From Methanocalculus chunghsingensis (GTDB lineage: Archaea > Halobacteriota > Methanomicrobia > Methanomicrobiales > Methanocorpusculaceae), in contig NZ_JWHL01000003.1 in assembly GCF_018132105.1 (NCBI RefSeq), positions 124,001-188,000 of the forward strand: a stretch of DNA of 64,000 nucleotides. The letters are read 5' to 3'. The notes under the pieces are model-generated. The model was not told the DNA's origin, did not search any database, and worked only from the letters and a program-made list of their open reading frames with translations. Below are positions 9,716 through 17,750 of this stretch, piece by piece (position 1 is the first letter of the stretch; each line of letters opens with the position of its first letter). The position numbers and the translations under genes are program-made.

Positions 9716-10093
9716 TTATCGATCTGCCCAGAGGAGATGGATATTGCAGTATTCCCGGGCCTTCACCGGCTCTTCGTCCGTCTCGAAGTAGGCGGTCGGG
9801 GCCATCCCCTGCTTGAGATACGCCCGGTGGATACAATCCTTTGTCTGGAGCTCGATCCACTCGATATAATGGTTTTCCTCCATCGGATGCGGGGTCGATC
9901 CGACGGTCACAAGGTAGCCCTTCCCGGATCGTTCGATGATCGGGACATGCTTCTCGGTCGTCTTGTCGGCAGTCTGCTCAGAGAGGAGTTCCATCTCTTT
10001 TCCGCAGCAGACGAGCTTTCCGTTTCCACTGTGCATCACGCCGGTGATATTCCCACAGACGCCGCATTTGTATATCTCATGAATGTGTGTCAT
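9716..10093 (-). CDS. dfx: Desulfoferrodoxin (superoxide reductase)
   Basis: This 125-residue enzyme reduces superoxide to hydrogen peroxide without making oxygen, taking electrons from rubredoxin. The N-terminal desulforedoxin domain has its four iron ligands C10, C13, C29 and C30. The catalytic domain keeps the histidines H49, H69 and H75 and the C116/H119 pair near the C-terminus, as well as the E47-K48 pair next to the active site. It is the third gene of an operon with rubredoxin and FprA, which would supply electrons and remove oxygen. Both iron centres are intact, so it is a 2Fe-type superoxide reductase. Confidence 0.96.
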   Translation of the reverse strand: MTHIHEIYKCGVCGNITGVMHSGNGKLVCCGKEMELLSEQTADKTTEKHVPIIERSGKGYLVTVGSTPHPMEENHYIEWIELQTKDCIHRAYLKQGMAPTAYFETDEEPVKAREYCNIHLLWADR

Positions 10094-10128
10094 GGCATCA
10101 TCTCAAAATACGCTTACAGAGAGCCCTT

Positions 10129-11307
10129 CTACGAGGACTCTGCATGCTTCTCCCTGATTGTCCGTGCAAGCTGTTTCAGTGCGGTGATATCCTTCTCAAC
10201 CGCCTGTCCCTTCACATAGACCGGGTCGAGGATCTCACACTTCAGTGGGGCGATCATATCGCTGATCTGCTTCACCGTCTTCCCTCCCCAGCCAAACGAT
10301 CCGATGACTGTTGCATACTTCGCCTTCGGCTTGATGGCTGCTGTCAGGTATGCTGCATGTACCGCAAGCGGATGGGCACCGAAGAGGACGGTTGGTGTTG
10401 CAATGATGATCGTCTGGGCTTCAACGAGAGCCATTGCGAGAAGGCCGGTATCGCTCTGGGTGAGATCGAACCGCTCAACATGGACTCCTTCTGCGATGAG
10501 GGCATTGGAGAGGATATCAACCATCTTTTTGGTGCTTCCATGCATTGTGACATAGGCGATGACGGCAGTATTCTTCGGTGCACCTGTCGCCCACTCCCGG
10601 TAATACCCGAGGATCAGTGATGGGTTGTCATAGAGGGGACCATGGCTCGGTGCGATGATCGAGATGTCAAGTCCTTCGATGAGATCAAGGTACCCTCCGA
10701 TACTGCCGGCAAAGGGCATCATAATCTCGGCATAATACCTCTTCGCCGACTCGTAGAGCCGTTCGGGATCATGGATAAAGAGATCTGATGTGGCGAGGTG
10801 TGATCCAAGGAAGTCCCCGGTAAAGAGGACGTTATCCTCAACGACCTGCGTCAGCATCGTATCTGGCCAGTGAACCCAGGGGGTGAGGTGGAAGCGGAGT
10901 GTCTTCCCACCGAGATCGAGGGTCTGCTGATCCTCAATAACCATGATTCTGCAGTCTTCGATCCCGAAGAACTCAATTAAGAGCTCTCTGCATTTTCCAT
11001 TCGTTACCACCATCGAACCCGGATAGAGATCAAGGATGAGTGGGAGGCAGCCGGAATGATCCTGTTCGGCATGGTTGATGACGACATAGTCCAGCGTATT
11101 GATCTTTTCTGTCATCAGGTTGGTGACAAGCTCCATCTCCATCTCTTCATCAACGGTATCGATGAGAGCGGTCTTGTCGGCTCCCTGTACCAGATAGGCA
11201 TTGTAACTGGTACCCTTCGGTGTCGGAACCAGGGCATCAAAGAGACGGCGATCCCAGTCAATTGCTCCAATCCAGGAGATTCCATCTGTTATCTTTCGGA
11301 CGACCAA
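10129..11307 (-). CDS. fprA: Type A flavoprotein FprA (F420H2 oxidase / flavodiiron protein)
   Basis: This 392-residue flavodiiron protein reduces oxygen to water; in methanogens the electrons come from F420H2. The N-terminal metallo-beta-lactamase-like domain has the diiron ligands H79, E81, D83 and H84 (HAEQDH). The C-terminal flavodoxin domain binds FMN (about residues 250-392; VTMHGSTKKM is the phosphate loop). The start is TTG at 11307, with GGAG nine bases upstream and six bases after the rubredoxin stop. It is flanked by rubredoxin and superoxide reductase on one transcript, so the three form an oxygen-defence unit. Confidence 0.95.
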   Translation of the reverse strand: MVVRKITDGISWIGAIDWDRRLFDALVPTPKGTSYNAYLVQGADKTALIDTVDEEMEMELVTNLMTEKINTLDYVVINHAEQDHSGCLPLILDLYPGSMVVTNGKCRELLIEFFGIEDCRIMVIEDQQTLDLGGKTLRFHLTPWVHWPDTMLTQVVEDNVLFTGDFLGSHLATSDLFIHDPERLYESAKRYYAEIMMPFAGSIGGYLDLIEGLDISIIAPSHGPLYDNPSLILGYYREWATGAPKNTAVIAYVTMHGSTKKMVDILSNALIAEGVHVERFDLTQSDTGLLAMALVEAQTIIIATPTVLFGAHPLAVHAAYLTAAIKPKAKYATVIGSFGWGGKTVKQISDMIAPLKCEILDPVYVKGQAVEKDITALKQLARTIREKHAESS

Positions 11308-11313
11308 TGCGGG

Positions 11314-11451
11314 TCACTCCTTCTTCACAAAGAGGGCTTTGCGTGCTGCACAGACCGGACAGACCCATGTCTCGGGGAGCTCTTCAAATGGCGTTCCTTC
11401 CTTCTCTGCGTCATATACATGCCCACAGATTGTACATTTCCATGAATCCAT
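11314..11451 (-). CDS. rub: Rubredoxin
   Basis: This 45-residue electron carrier has one iron bound by two CxxC pairs, CTIC (6-9) and CPVC (31-34). It lacks the last few residues of typical 52-residue rubredoxins but keeps the fold motifs [11 protein letters not shown] and PETWVCPVC. The ATG at 11451 is chosen because AGGAGA lies six bases upstream; an ATG at 11457 sits directly on that ribosome binding site. It is the first gene of the operon with FprA and superoxide reductase and probably feeds electrons to them. Confidence 0.95.
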
Positions 11452-11516
11452 CTTCATTCTCCTTTGGTATCTCCTTATGCAGAAAAAAAGGATAATGGTT
11501 GTGATCGTACATCTCT

Positions 11517-12035
11517 TTATTCGAGATAATATGTATGGAAGAACCAAAACGACCGGTTCCTCCTTACGGCAACCGCGATTCTATAGAGCCTGATGATCTC
11601 GATCATCAGATCGATCCGGGAACTATACCTCTCCGGGATCATCTGGTTGAACCGCTCTTTGGTGATCCGATCTGTTGATGAGCTGTACCTGATCCCAAGT
11701 ATTGAGGAGGCTTTTTTGTCAAGGCCTGCAAGATACCACCCCTCGATCTCTTTGATGACGATGATGATCTTCTGCTCATCAAGTTCGCGGTACCTGCTCA
11801 TCAGGACCCTCTTCTTCGCCTTGACCGACCGCTTATGATCGATATCCGCGACCAAGAGATAGTCATCCCCCATCGCCCCGATTCCCCGGATGAACCCGTC
11901 CACCCGGATATACTTCATACCGGCATAGCCGATCATCCGGATATCATCATATCCTTCCTGCAGGTGCTCCCTGAGAACCCCTTCAAAAAATCTGATGTCA
12001 TCCGGCCCTTCACAGAAGATGTAGAGGCGATTCAT
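11517..12035 (-). CDS. TOPRIM-like protein, DUF4276/DUF4435 type
   Basis: The 172-residue protein looks like a small TOPRIM nuclease-type partner of an ATPase. It opens with a hydrophobic strand ending in CEGPDD (E9 as the candidate catalytic glutamate), then has VADIDH (D64 and D66) and IEGWYLAG (E98), in the order expected of DUF4276/RloB-like TOPRIM proteins. The start overlaps the stop of the upstream ATPase as ATGA, so the two are translationally coupled. That pairing recalls AbiL, PARIS and OLD-type anti-phage systems, in which the ATPase senses infection and the TOPRIM protein cuts nucleic acid. This role is inferred from architecture only. Confidence 0.7.
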
Positions 12036-13270
12036 AGCCCGAGCAGGTTCTGGATATAGAGCTCTTCGATACCAACCTCATTTTTGAGGAAGGTTCGGAC
12101 CTCTTCACGGAGGGCAGGCCTCACAACCTGTGAGAACCCATCCTTGTCCCTGGATATAAGCAGGATGTCCTCGACATCCGCATATCGTACGATCCCCGGG
12201 TTATGGGTGGTGATAAGGATCTGTTTGCCTGATGCGGCATCCGCCACCATCGAGACGACTTTGGCGATGAGGTAGGGATGGATATTCTTTTCAGGCTCTT
12301 CGATGATGATGAAGGGCTTCTCCTCAAAGTAGAGGGCTACGATGAGGTTGATGACATTGATCGTCCCATCCGATATCACCGAGGAGGGGAGGGTCAGATC
12401 ATTTCCATACCTCTCGGTGATGGTAAAGTATACCGAACTGTCCATGAACCTCCTGATATCGATATCCTGGATGAAGGGGAGGAGATCATGCATCAGGTTG
12501 GCAAGCCGCCTCTTTTTGATGGGATCTGCAAGGATCGTCCGGAGAACCAGTGCAAGGTTCGATCCATCCTCTTCGAGATCACTTCTGCCGGTGAGCGGTA
12601 TCGCCTTCCTCGGTGATCGCGGATCAAAGTCATAGATGGCAATATCAGAGAAGAACCGCTGAAATCCGGGCAGGGGAACAAGAAGAGGATTTTCGATGAG
12701 GAGCGTCCCGGGCCGTGGTGTATTGTCCTGAAGGTACGGCGGGATGATATCAGAGATCTCAATGGTAACCCCTTCCGGTGTCCTGAGATCATAGACGACA
12801 CCATCATCCTTCCGGATAATCAGGAGCTCACCGTCTCCCCGGCTATCTGCATCTGACTCCGGGCTGCATGAACACGCGAGCCGGAGTGTATCAGAGACTA
12901 TCTCATAAGCATCATCCCTGATGAGGAGGCTAAAACGGTACTCTATCTCACTGAAGGTAAGGGTATGCCGTCTTCCCTCTGTATCACGGACCCCGGAGAG
13001 GACCCCGAGATTATTTTCAAATATAACTCCAAGCTCGGTCGGTGTATCCTTTGGGAAGCTGGCATTTCTGATGAACTCAGCACCCCCCTGCATTGATATT
13101 GCGTTTCCAATGCCATGCCGTGCGATATCACGGAAGAACCGGAGTATTCTGATGAAGTTCGTCTTTCCGGCGGCATTTGTTCCGATCAGGATATTGTACG
13201 TATCAAGATCCACCACAAGGTCAGAGAAGCTCTTGAAGTTTTTACATGCAACCTGTTGTATCCTCATCAT
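12032..13270 (-). CDS. AAA ATPase, OLD/AriA-like (AAA_15/AAA_21)
   Basis: The 412-residue protein is an ABC/SMC-like ATPase. Its N-terminus resembles RecF-type proteins (FKSFSDL) with Walker A GTNAAGKT at 30-37. A long middle domain follows, then Walker B with paired glutamates (FIIIEE, 320-325) and a switch histidine in LITTHNPG. It has no fused TOPRIM domain; that function is supplied by the next gene, which overlaps by 4 bases. Split ATPase plus TOPRIM pairs are typical of AbiL and PARIS defence systems. Upstream lies a 62-base gap to TspO on the same strand. Confidence 0.8.
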   Translation of the reverse strand: MMRIQQVACKNFKSFSDLVVDLDTYNILIGTNAAGKTNFIRILRFFRDIARHGIGNAISMQGGAEFIRNASFPKDTPTELGVIFENNLGVLSGVRDTEGRRHTLTFSEIEYRFSLLIRDDAYEIVSDTLRLACSCSPESDADSRGDGELLIIRKDDGVVYDLRTPEGVTIEISDIIPPYLQDNTPRPGTLLIENPLLVPLPGFQRFFSDIAIYDFDPRSPRKAIPLTGRSDLEEDGSNLALVLRTILADPIKKRRLANLMHDLLPFIQDIDIRRFMDSSVYFTITERYGNDLTLPSSVISDGTINVINLIVALYFEEKPFIIIEEPEKNIHPYLIAKVVSMVADAASGKQILITTHNPGIVRYADVEDILLISRDKDGFSQVVRPALREEVRTFLKNEVGIEELYIQNLLGL

Positions 13271-13332
13271 CGGCTCCTTTCATTGCATCTGGCTGAACCC
13301 GGATATATCTTTCTCTCAAAAAAGGGGGAAAT

Positions 13333-13917: not shown

Positions 13918-14478
13918 TCAGAAAAAAATCCCTTCGATAAGAATTCTGGCGCCGATACCAATGAGGATGATACCGCCAAGAAGCTCAACACGCCCACCGA
14001 GATACCTGCCAAAATGCCGTCCGGCCATGATACCGGCGATGCAGACACCGAAGGTAACGATGCCGATGACGAGGGCGGCAGAGAGGATCGGGATCTCAAG
14101 CAGAGAAAAGGTGACACCGACAGCGAGGGCATCTATGCTCGTTGCAACTGAAAGGATGAGTAGTATAGAAAAAGAAGCAATACCCGGTCTCTTTTCCTCT
14201 TCCTTTTCATATACTGCCTCGTAGATCATCTTCCCCCCGATAACAGCCAGGAGAAGAGATGCGACCCAGTGATCATATGGGGCGATGATCTCAGATCCCG
14301 CCTCCCCGATCAGGTACCCGATGATCGGCATCCCTCCCTGAAATATTCCAAAGAAGAAGGCTGCCCTGATCCCGTAATACCAGAATTGTTCTTTGAGGGT
14401 AGACCCGGCTGCTATCGAGACGGCGCAGGAGTCCATCGCAAGGGCGATGGCGATGAGAAAGAGTGTAATTCCGTTCAC
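13918..14478 (-). CDS. mntP: Manganese efflux protein MntP
   Basis: This 186-residue protein belongs to the MntP (DUF204) family, which exports Mn2+ across the membrane. Six transmembrane segments and the two family signatures with acidic residues, AMDSCAVSIAAG and SIDALAVGVTF, are present and related by internal repetition. The start is GTG at 14478 and overlaps the TGA of the HEAT-repeat gene as GTGA, so the pair is coupled. No yybP-ykoY-type riboswitch, which often controls bacterial mntP, is visible because the gene starts inside another coding region. Confidence 0.93.
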   Translation of the reverse strand: MNGITLFLIAIALAMDSCAVSIAAGSTLKEQFWYYGIRAAFFFGIFQGGMPIIGYLIGEAGSEIIAPYDHWVASLLLAVIGGKMIYEAVYEKEEEKRPGIASFSILLILSVATSIDALAVGVTFSLLEIPILSAALVIGIVTFGVCIAGIMAGRHFGRYLGGRVELLGGIILIGIGARILIEGIFF

Positions 14479-17400
14479 TGTTGGTTGCCTCTGCGCAGGA
14501 TCCGATCACAGACTCCCTGGATCATCTTCCTTCCCATCGGATCTGCCGTTGCGGACTCATCCTTCAGGGCGGGAAGAGCCTCCTCTCCCATCTCGAAGAG
14601 TGCATCTGCACAGACCTTTCGAATCAGGGTATATTCATCAGAAAGACCCTTGATGAGAGGGGGAATCGCAGTGGGATCTCCGGTCCTGCCGAGTGCCCGT
14701 GCCGCCCCCATCCTGATATCCTCATCCGGATCAGCGAGTGCGTCGATGAGAATCGGAACTGCAACGGATCCCTCTGCTGACATCTCATTCCAGCGCCCCT
14801 GGGCAAAAAGGAACTGTGCCCTGGCTTCACCATCACCCGGAGTCCATCCGATCTCTTTCAATGCATCGGCTGCCCCGGACCGGACATCCTTCACGGGATC
14901 AGAGAGTGCAGAAACGAGCGACTGTATTGCTGCATCCTCCATTCCTGCAAGAGCTTCAGCCGATGCGGAACGGACACTGAAATCCTCATCCCCGAGCTTC
15001 TGAATGAGTGGAGCTACCGCCGTTGGATCACCGATATAGCCTATCGCCCGGATGGCTGCTACCACGACATCGGGATCATCATCGGTGAGAAGCCCGGTGA
15101 GTGCGGAAACAGCTCTTGGATCCATAGAGATGCCGAGTGACTCAGCAGCTGCTATCCGGATACGGTAGTCCCTGTCAGTGAGCATCCGGATAAGAGGATC
15201 TATCGTCTGGGGATCTCCGATCTTTCCAAGAAGGAGTGCGACGGTGATTCTTGTATCTCTTCCACCGTCCCTCAGTAATGTCAGCAGCTCTTCAACGGCC
15301 GGCCCTCTGATCTCTGCCAGAATCTCTGCAGCCGTTGCCCGTTGTTCCCGGTTTCCTTTGAGAAGAATCTCGATCAGGGGTGAGACGGCGGCTGCCCCCC
15401 TGAGGACGAGCTCCTGTGCGGATTGGATCTGTGCCTCCTTATTGCCGCTGAGGAGATCCTGTATCAGGGGTATGATATCTTTGGCGGATTCGACATCCGA
15501 CTGCTTGGATGACCGATTAATGCCTCTGTCATCAACTCTTCCGATATCTCCCCCCCCAAGCAGGATCTCTGCCTTCTCGCTGATGACCGGATCCGGATCT
15601 GCAGAGGCGTGTTCAATGAGATACCTTGCATTCTCTCCAATATCCGCAAGGATCAGAAGAGCGGCAAGCTTCTCCTCACGGCTGCCGGCAGCCAGTATCT
15701 CTTCGAGAGGGCGGATAACGGCAACATCGAATCGTTTCAGTGCTTCAATAGCTGCAGCTCTGACACCCGCATTATCACTTCCAAGAAGGTTGACCAGATG
15801 TGGGATCGCCCTCTGATCGCCTATCTCTCCGAGTGCTTCTGCCGCTCCCCGCCGGATCTCATCTGACGGTCCGTTCAGGGTGGCAACCAGATTCTCCACT
15901 GCAGGTCTGCCTATCCGGCCAAGAGCAATGACTGCCTCCCTCTTCACATCTGCCTTCAGATCAGGGAGGCAGGTGATCAGAGGTGATATTGCATCGGTAC
16001 TTCGTAGTTTTCCAAGCGACCTTGCCGCCATGGCACGCACGGCTCCTTCACCATCAGCAAGAAGAGGGAGAAGATACCTGGCAGCAGATGGTTCTCCAAT
16101 CTCGCCGATCATCTCTGCCGCCGCTGCACGAACCGGTGGCGACGTATCTGAGAGCGCCCCTATCAGAACCGGGAGGGCCGGTGGGCCGATGGTGAGGAGG
16201 GCGTCAAGGGCGATGAGACGGCTCTCTTCATCTCCCTCACTGAGTACACGGAGGAGGGCATTGATCAACGGCTCGGCCTGCTCATCGATCTTCTCAGGTG
16301 TGGCAGATCCGATGCCCGCGAGCTTCTCATGGACTGCCGGATCGATCTTCTGAATCACTCTTTGGATCTTAACAAATTTCTTCTCAGGAAAGAGTGCTAC
16401 CCTCTCCGTTTCATCATTATCTTCACCCTTATCAGGCTTCTCTTCCGGTTTCTCCTCCGAAACCGCTCTCCTCTCCTCTCCCGTACCCTGGTCCATCCTC
16501 TTCAGCTGAATTTTTTCATCAGGTGATCGGTTCTTCTTTGAGAGATCGATCGATCCGGCTCCCCGGCTTTTTTCCTGTTTTGTATCCCCTTCTTCATCCC
16601 GGTTTCCGGGCCTGAGCGGACGAAAGACCCGGTCGCTCTTTCCAAGCGAGGTGAGAAGTTCTCCTGCACCATTTCGTATCCTGATATCGGGGCTGCTGAG
16701 TGCTTCTTCAAGCGGACCGATTGAATACCTGGCGAGACTTCTGAGCGACTCTGAGATCCCTTTTCTAACGCTGTAATAATCATCTCTGAGAGTGTCGATT
16801 AACGGTGGAACTGCGGCTCTTCCGATGGCTGCGACCTTCTCCCACTGTTCGGTTGCAATGAAGTACCGTGCCCGCCCGGTATCGTTTGCTGGATACCATC
16901 CGAGCCGATCAAGGCTTGATGCCGCCTCCATCCTGACGCTGTAATACTCATCCTCCAATGCGGTGACGAGGCGTGGAATCGCACGTACGTCCCCGATTGC
17001 ACCCAGCGCCTCAGCCGCCGCCGTCCGGACATTTCCATCCTTATCTGAGAGTATTCCAAGGAGCGGGGCTATAGCCTCGCTGTCACCGAGATTTCCCAGT
17101 GTCCGTGCGGCATTGACCCTGGAGACATAGTAATCATCATCGAGAAGCCTGATCAGGATTGGAACTGCTGCACGCCGGAATCGCTGCAGATCCTTCCATT
17201 GCCCAAGTGCGATCAGTCGTGCAGCCGCCTCACTCTCGCTCTCCGGGCTGATACGTATTGCATCAAGTGCCTGTGCAGCCCCCCTCCGGGATCGATACGA
17301 CGGGCTGAAGAGACCTTCTCTGAGGAAAGGCGCATTATTTGATCCGATATGGACGAGGGTTGCGATGATAAGCTCGCTCTTCTCTTCTTCAATATGATGG

Positions 17401-17750
17401 AGGCACTCAATAAGAGGTGCAGCAGCGGGTGTTCCAATCGAGGCAAGTGCTGCGGCGGCATATTCTCTCTTCCGCCCATCTTCCTTTATCAGAATTCTCA
17501 TGAGATGAGGGATGGCCGGGGATTCGATCCGGTTGAGGACAAGCGCAGCACAGGAGCGCCTCTTCTCATCCTGATCCACAGCAGCAGCTATAACCCCGGG
17601 CAGGGCTCCGGGCATCAGGCTCATCAGGGCAGAGACGGAATTTTCCCGTATCTGTGAATCGGGGGATTCACATGCCCTGATCAGCCCATCAACATCTCCG
17701 CGTTCTTTGAGTTTTTCTATATTGGGGCGAAAAATGTCGAATAATCCCAT
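14475..17750 (-). CDS. Large HEAT-repeat (PBS-lyase-like) protein
   Basis: The 1091-residue protein is built almost wholly of HEAT/PBS-lyase-like repeats of about 31 residues, each of the form D...VR..AA.ALG.IGD..A...L. An N-terminal array (about 25-372) and a long C-terminal array (about 485-1085) flank a charged, low-complexity linker (about 375-480) rich in Glu, Lys and Asp. A variant unit with W.P...AR...A...W......G..AVP.LI recurs near residues 170, 285 and 985. Such solenoids scaffold protein complexes; no catalytic domain, signal peptide or membrane segment is visible. It overlaps mntP by 4 bases. Confidence 0.85.
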   Translation of the reverse strand: MGLFDIFRPNIEKLKERGDVDGLIRACESPDSQIRENSVSALMSLMPGALPGVIAAAVDQDEKRRSCAALVLNRIESPAIPHLMRILIKEDGRKREYAAAALASIGTPAAAPLIECLHHIEEEKSELIIATLVHIGSNNAPFLREGLFSPSYRSRRGAAQALDAIRISPESESEAAARLIALGQWKDLQRFRRAAVPILIRLLDDDYYVSRVNAARTLGNLGDSEAIAPLLGILSDKDGNVRTAAAEALGAIGDVRAIPRLVTALEDEYYSVRMEAASSLDRLGWYPANDTGRARYFIATEQWEKVAAIGRAAVPPLIDTLRDDYYSVRKGISESLRSLARYSIGPLEEALSSPDIRIRNGAGELLTSLGKSDRVFRPLRPGNRDEEGDTKQEKSRGAGSIDLSKKNRSPDEKIQLKRMDQGTGEERRAVSEEKPEEKPDKGEDNDETERVALFPEKKFVKIQRVIQKIDPAVHEKLAGIGSATPEKIDEQAEPLINALLRVLSEGDEESRLIALDALLTIGPPALPVLIGALSDTSPPVRAAAAEMIGEIGEPSAARYLLPLLADGEGAVRAMAARSLGKLRSTDAISPLITCLPDLKADVKREAVIALGRIGRPAVENLVATLNGPSDEIRRGAAEALGEIGDQRAIPHLVNLLGSDNAGVRAAAIEALKRFDVAVIRPLEEILAAGSREEKLAALLILADIGENARYLIEHASADPDPVISEKAEILLGGGDIGRVDDRGINRSSKQSDVESAKDIIPLIQDLLSGNKEAQIQSAQELVLRGAAAVSPLIEILLKGNREQRATAAEILAEIRGPAVEELLTLLRDGGRDTRITVALLLGKIGDPQTIDPLIRMLTDRDYRIRIAAAESLGISMDPRAVSALTGLLTDDDPDVVVAAIRAIGYIGDPTAVAPLIQKLGDEDFSVRSASAEALAGMEDAAIQSLVSALSDPVKDVRSGAADALKEIGWTPGDGEARAQFLFAQGRWNEMSAEGSVAVPILIDALADPDEDIRMGAARALGRTGDPTAIPPLIKGLSDEYTLIRKVCADALFEMGEEALPALKDESATADPMGRKMIQGVCDRILRRGNQQ

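Follow-up and report, generated by a model that had tools for sequence, protein, structure and literature searches.

What kind of machine do two overlapping genes of Methanocalculus chunghsingensis encode, one specifying an ATPase and the other a small TOPRIM-like protein, and is the pair a candidate anti-phage system, as the first-pass annotation proposed? The stretch of DNA analysed, here called the window, is 64,000 nucleotides long and belongs to contig C33 of genome G000. Below, A stands for the ATPase gene or protein and T for the TOPRIM gene or protein. The features are as follows.

12032..13270, minus strand: A, an ABC/AAA_21 ATPase of 412 aa with Walker A, signature, Walker B, D-loop and H-loop residues (from the open reading frame, profiles, alignment and model)
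11517..12035, minus strand: T, a free-standing TOPRIM protein of 172 aa with E9/D13, D64/D66, E96/E98 and K126 and a helical C-terminal part (from the open reading frame, alignment and model)
13302..13309, minus strand: TATA-box-like GATATATC, ~35 bases upstream of the start codon of A, possibly its own promoter (by eye)
11483..11489, minus strand: a run of seven T bases (coding strand) directly 3′ of gene T, a possible terminator (by eye)

A (13270..12032) and T (12035..11517) share 4 bases, 12032-12035, and both reading frames, with the 172 residues of T, are as first annotated. The TATA-like box before A and the T-run after gene T, elements judged by eye, suggest that the pair may be a separate transcription unit. 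Its neighbours in the window are TspO, MntP, a rubredoxin-like ORF, an FprA-like flavoprotein and desulfoferrodoxin, and the original remark that no known defence gene adjoins it holds good. The last three of these neighbours form an oxygen-defence cluster downstream of T (9716-11547), and FprA adjoins the pair in genera g1 (two of its genomes), g30, g34 and g35. At 14475-17750 lies the gene for a HEAT-repeat-like protein of 1091 aa, which evolves faster than most neighbours (83% identity and dN/dS 0.18 between G000 and G001). Among named records, those closest to T (66-70%) come from Methanocalculus, with one from Methanocorpusculaceae.

The ATPase, the TOPRIM protein and their relatives

A matches AAA_21 (E 5.7e-27) and also AAA_15. 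Its Walker motifs, taken at first sight to be intact, are so in almost all homologues: Walker A G30, G35 and K36, signature S300 and G302, Walker B E324-E325-P326, and H356 are kept in 58-60 of 60 aligned homologues, and the D-loop is conserved to the same extent. (Seven loci that are duplicates, fragments or unrelated, L044, L045, L046, L048, L049, L099 and L100, are absent from the alignments of both proteins; L007, L075 and L092 were in addition dropped from that of A.) The PADLOC HEC-01A model PDLC04176 is matched at E 2e-46 over positions 1-365 of its 371, the AriA model at 1.3e-27, AbiLi at 1.4e-26 and MAD3 at 6.5e-41, yet the 140.9 bits of the last are far below the NCBIfam equivalog cut-off of 420 bits. 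The structural model of A (pLDDT 88.0) aligns best with the heads of PtuA, SMC and Rad50 at Z 19-21; A fits ABC heads of this type, which indicates fold class and not function.

The residues by which T had been recognised as TOPRIM-like are conserved. E9, D64 and E98 are identical in 64/64 homologues, six of them from outside the order Methanomicrobiales, and the same is true of D13, E96 and K126. G10, D12, R15, F16, I97, W100, Y101, G104, E127, P134, N160 and S162 are likewise invariant. Residue 66, the second Asp of the DxD, is D in 59/64 and N in 5/64; all five sequences with N are the outside-order homologues L005-L009, and every aligned sequence from the order has D.

Class 1 OLD nucleases, class 2 (GajA) and class 3 (retron) have been distinguished, with PARIS proposed as class 4. 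The OLD proteins have in common with the pair an ABC ATPase and a TOPRIM domain with the E / DxD / xxE / K set; in classes 1-3 the two are in one chain, whereas A and T are two chains. The full metal-site set of the family (E, acid at +4, DxD, second-metal E, K) is present in T. In the available part of the description of Burkholderia pseudomallei OLD, the active site comprises E400/E404, D455/D457, T506/E508 and K562 (PMC6755086), which are paralleled in T by E9/D13, D64/D66, E96/E98 and K126, a pairing that beyond the E and the DxD is our own reading and not a structural superposition. On the same partial source, 55 residues separate the glutamate from the first aspartate in both proteins, while the helical part of T is much shorter, K126 being 28 residues past E98 where K562 of the B. 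pseudomallei protein is 54 past E508. Neither a UvrD-like helicase nor a reverse transcriptase was seen beside the pair in the window.

The structural model of T (mean pLDDT 94.1, pTM 0.87) points in the same direction. Foldseek ranks 1-5 against the PDB are all OLD proteins, none of them reaching E <= 0.001. With VIA-align, Thermus scotoductus OLD gives Z 7.9 (134 residues), B. pseudomallei OLD 7.7 (153) and the GajA entries 6.0-7.5 (146-151), the alignments to OLD and GajA TOPRIM regions spanning 134-154 residues overall, and Z values below 8 may reflect a common arrangement. The top VIA-align row for T is PH0156 of Pyrococcus horikoshii (2p62; Z 8.4, 157 residues), but since it is titled hypothetical protein it does not help to identify T. 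Searching solved structures with the sequence of T turned up no informative match. AriB structures are absent among the Foldseek and VIA-align matches listed for T, an absence that excludes nothing. Residue pattern and predicted fold together support assigning T to the OLD-type TOPRIM nucleases, an assignment of fold class and not of function.

In profile comparisons, the T of the window matches PADLOC HEC-01B only at 4.6e-4 over a short partial stretch; among 39 T homologues searched, HEC-01B is matched by 38 (E <= 0.01, best 1.7e-9), AriB by 20 (best 8.6e-8) and mad4 by 15 (best 2.4e-6). Two families that had been put forward for checking did not claim it. The window's T shows no AriB or DUF4435 match up to E 10, and against Pfam DUF4276 (PF14103) it scores 13.8 bits (E 0.071) where the gathering threshold is 30.2 bits. 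Membership of DUF4276 is thus ruled out by the Pfam threshold; a remote kinship is retained, as the T profile aligns with a profile of 16 DUF4276 proteins over most of its length with an hhalign probability of 62. DUF4276, AriB and Mad4 are remote relatives of T.

Of catalogued kinds, HEC-01, a PADLOC candidate, is closest: it too consists of an ATPase and a small TOPRIM-like protein in two genes. The pairs of the order are however not embedded among defence genes, the 'embedded' criterion being here taken from the name. In the available part of PMC12988326, HEC stands for Hma-embedded candidate, and several HECs including HEC-06 were tested and are antiviral; HEC-01 is not named in that part. 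Searches of a limited literature collection returned no paper on HEC-01 with defence systems and none on DUF4276. PARIS (AriA with AriB) has the same split layout of ATPase and TOPRIM effector, but its effector is of the DUF4435 family. For MADS, the matches of A to MAD3 and of T homologues to mad4 have no methylation-system gene beside them in the window. For AbiL, A matches AbiLi, and AbiLii is not among the matches listed for T or its homologues.

Pairing, chromosomal sites and loss in place

T is matched in 99/232 Methanomicrobiales genomes (E <= 0.001), a patchy presence, for which a check had been proposed, and at a single place in each except G196, in which a decayed copy gives two split matches. 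It is in 62/135 near-complete genomes of the order and without a match in the other 73; the 133/232 unmatched genomes of the order include many that are incomplete. All eight genomes of the window's genus have T (one as a piece at a contig end), and among 25 of the sister genus there is one weak match. The A profile finds 94/232 genomes (E <= 1e-40), again with a single place in each except G161, where A is split over two frames with a stop. All 94 also have T. The five genomes with T only comprise three contig ends (G004, G036, G220), the decayed copy of G196 and the weak match of G018, which on our reading is unrelated. A distances and T distances show a correlation of 0.88. In the loci examined the two have separate best ORFs, as in the window, and across homologues a 4-base overlap is the commonest junction.

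Between G000 and G001, dN/dS is 0.10 for T and 0.11 for A, compared with 0.036-0.183 for twelve neighbours (the W-L046 row for A, thought to be a mispairing with another ATPase, was ignored), and both genes are under ordinary purifying selection. These values and the presence of T in all 94 genomes with A mean that the two are not chance ORFs. A phylum-wide T profile search gave 47/392 genomes, 7 of them outside the order. In one locus of family f4 (L081:7550-8131), a gene for a 193-aa protein shares 4 bases with the end of T. It has no Pfam match, and members of its cluster, c20, come after T in most g14 loci, in which the c20 protein is possibly a third component or regulator.

The pair occupies fixed chromosomal sites. 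(Neighbour gene names are our reading, some confirmed by profile.) In Methanocalculus (most clearly G000 and G001), g30 and g34 the genes run KorA-KorB ... TspO-A-T-FprA and, past FprA, include desulfoferrodoxin, joined in g30 and g34 by TrkH. In g24, g32, g37 and g40 the pair is near an ABC exporter, an ACT-domain protein and homoserine dehydrogenase, though not all three in each genus, and in families f2, f4 and f5 it is often near RibL-like and dihydropteroate-synthase-like genes. At least two neighbours are shared in 80/83 within-genus pairs of T loci, as against 16/45 for true DUF4276 genes, a control that still counted any partner ATPase as a neighbour. No anchor was obtained in this count for five T loci (L071, L085, L074, L096, L097) and one DUF4276 locus (L195), where a longer overlapping ORF had probably been picked.

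Loss at these sites can be followed in eleven g30 and g34 genomes that lack T but have FprA, ten of which retain neighbours from either flank. Nothing is left of the pair between the flanks in eight (G157, G139, G171, G173, G178, G183, G184 and G140). In G134 the scar covers query residues 18-94 of A and 147-173 of T, in G136 query residues 18-56 of A, and the sequence of G177 stops at a contig end. In G196, A and T are both decayed and adjoin FprA and desulfoferrodoxin; in G189, A is truncated. Two more g34 genomes have no FprA match. In close relatives, scars or decayed remains of the pair at the ancestral site by FprA (L172:9423-9789, L173:912-1028 and L099:6055-7148) are natural knock-outs.

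In a tree of A and T together (60 rows) each genus is one clade, with 17 label changes where 17 is the minimum, and family f6 is compatible with a single clade. Monophyly of the whole order is weakly rejected (p-AU 0.03), from which it follows that the form in f2, f4 and f5 may be a separate ancient entry. Genus monophyly was considered as proof of vertical descent and is weakened by the control: a tree of DUF4276 genes, with 10 changes against a minimum of 9, is nearly as genus-coherent, so that the tree alone fails to separate the behaviour of the pair from that of DUF4276. The case for vertical descent therefore rests on synteny and scars. The best reading of the pair in Methanomicrobiales is a single-copy resident operon, vertically inherited, dispensable and sometimes deleted in place.

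Defence genes, plasmids and phage

Within the order, 137 flank proteins from 18 loci were searched at E <= 1e-15 (L184 being dropped as the same locus as L007). The matches were to mad3 (six proteins, which we read as ordinary ABC ATPases), to HEAT-ARM (two) and, in one protein in G002, to the PADLOC candidate PDC-M19A; restriction or CRISPR matches were absent from these 137. The set from outside the order (84 proteins, 13 loci) was hand-chosen, with up to four genes per side; ten of its proteins were first picked as defence-like, and all 84 were then searched unselected as a check. It includes type IIG restriction enzymes in L181 and L185, a DNA methylase by the pair in L006, and Cas3 with a RAMP protein in L186. 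Restriction or CRISPR genes are accordingly beside the pair in 4/13 outside-order loci and 0/18 order loci (Fisher p 0.023), or 4/13 and 1/18 (p 0.13) if the PDC-M19A neighbour is counted as defence. The outside-order association with defence is modest.

With tblastn, T has no match in 72,556 plasmid and 50,697 phage records. One of the 13 outside-order loci is nonetheless on a viral contig: L187:6736-8528 (IMGVR_UViG_3300011829_000020) carries the pair at 33% and 38% in the same gene order, its ORFs overlapping by one base, and the contig encodes SSB and both terminase subunits. True DUF4276 (PF14103) genes are unlike T in being less syntenic, multi-copy and with plasmid relatives. They occur in 45/232 of the order's genomes, a single genome holding as many as four. 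G000 itself has two, outside the window on contig C33 (15880-16509 and 26117-26743), and the PF14103 search of that genome returned these two places, T not among them. One of the two proteins has relatives on 12 plasmids and none in phage records.

What the pair may do

Even chances are given to the reading that A and T form an ATP-gated two-metal TOPRIM nuclease module, carried as a resident operon and most likely serving intracellular surveillance against viruses or foreign nucleic acid. The two proteins would correspond to an OLD-like nuclease split in two, with HEC-01 closest to them and PARIS AriA/AriB and MADS Mad3/Mad4 further off. By extension from these three families, A would oligomerise on ATP and detect a trigger, and would restrain or license T, which would then nick or cut nucleic acid. 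A resident defence role is possible because outside-order relatives adjoin restriction or CRISPR genes and one is on a phage contig. Against it are the non-defence flanks in the order, and vertical inheritance and neighbour-like dN/dS are unusual for defence genes. Such a role had been held at the outset to sit badly with presence in nearly all members of the order beside the same neighbours, or with unconserved TOPRIM residues. The neighbours are indeed conserved within clades, but the pair is far from present in nearly all members and the residues are conserved.

The same single copy at conserved sites among metabolic genes would suit a domesticated housekeeping nuclease, an ATP-gated TOPRIM module recruited for processing of DNA ends, for repair or for RNA turnover; its presence throughout the window's genus and in 13 consecutive genome labels of g32, a dN/dS resembling that of metabolic neighbours and the absence of T from plasmid and phage records speak for it too. 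Against it, the pair is dispensable, missing from over half of the near-complete genomes and lost in place from several Methanoregula-like ones, and outside the order it has defence genes near it in four loci and a copy on a phage contig; we consider this account less likely than not. An antiviral role is the likelier of the two, though unproven. Strict co-occurrence, tight coupling and the mostly 4-base overlap could also be those of a module resembling a toxin and antitoxin, in which A restrains a toxic nuclease T and addiction keeps the pair; for PARIS, the available part of PMC12409363 has AriA keep the AriB effector sequestered. Repeated joint loss in place and decay of both genes mean that loss of the pair is tolerated, and a plasmid-free distribution is atypical of addiction modules, which makes this account improbable.

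Least credible, at odds that we put very low, is a recently acquired, mobile, island-borne anti-phage system. The patchiness of the pair in the order is in its favour, as are the restriction and CRISPR genes of the outside-order loci and the weak rejection of order monophyly, which may mean more than one ancient entry. It is disfavoured by the conserved neighbours of 80/83 within-genus pairs, the single copy, the lack of a defence island, two lost sites with scars and a tree in which all genera are single clades. In the window's organism itself a mobile defence island is rejected on synteny, single copy and flank content. Of the original proposal of an anti-phage system the type of machine is supported, with its OLD-like residues and fold and its HEC-01 matches; a mobile, island-borne setting in this organism is not.

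To our knowledge, most descriptions of paired ABC ATPase and TOPRIM proteins present them as mobile antiviral systems. A form fixed in place across genera, with losses in place, would mean that such modules can become resident in archaeal genomes, and close relatives with and without the pair are a natural comparison for testing what the module does. Defence profile libraries (PADLOC HEC-01) may miscount the resident pair as a mobile defence system. More tentatively, at less than an even chance, domestication in Methanomicrobiales turned a defence-type split OLD nuclease into a nucleic-acid surveillance or maintenance enzyme that is specific to the lineage and vertically inherited, and elsewhere, in other phyla and in a phage, the family has a defence-associated form. 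If domestication did take place, one family would hold both defence-associated and resident forms, and their common mechanism would be directly comparable.
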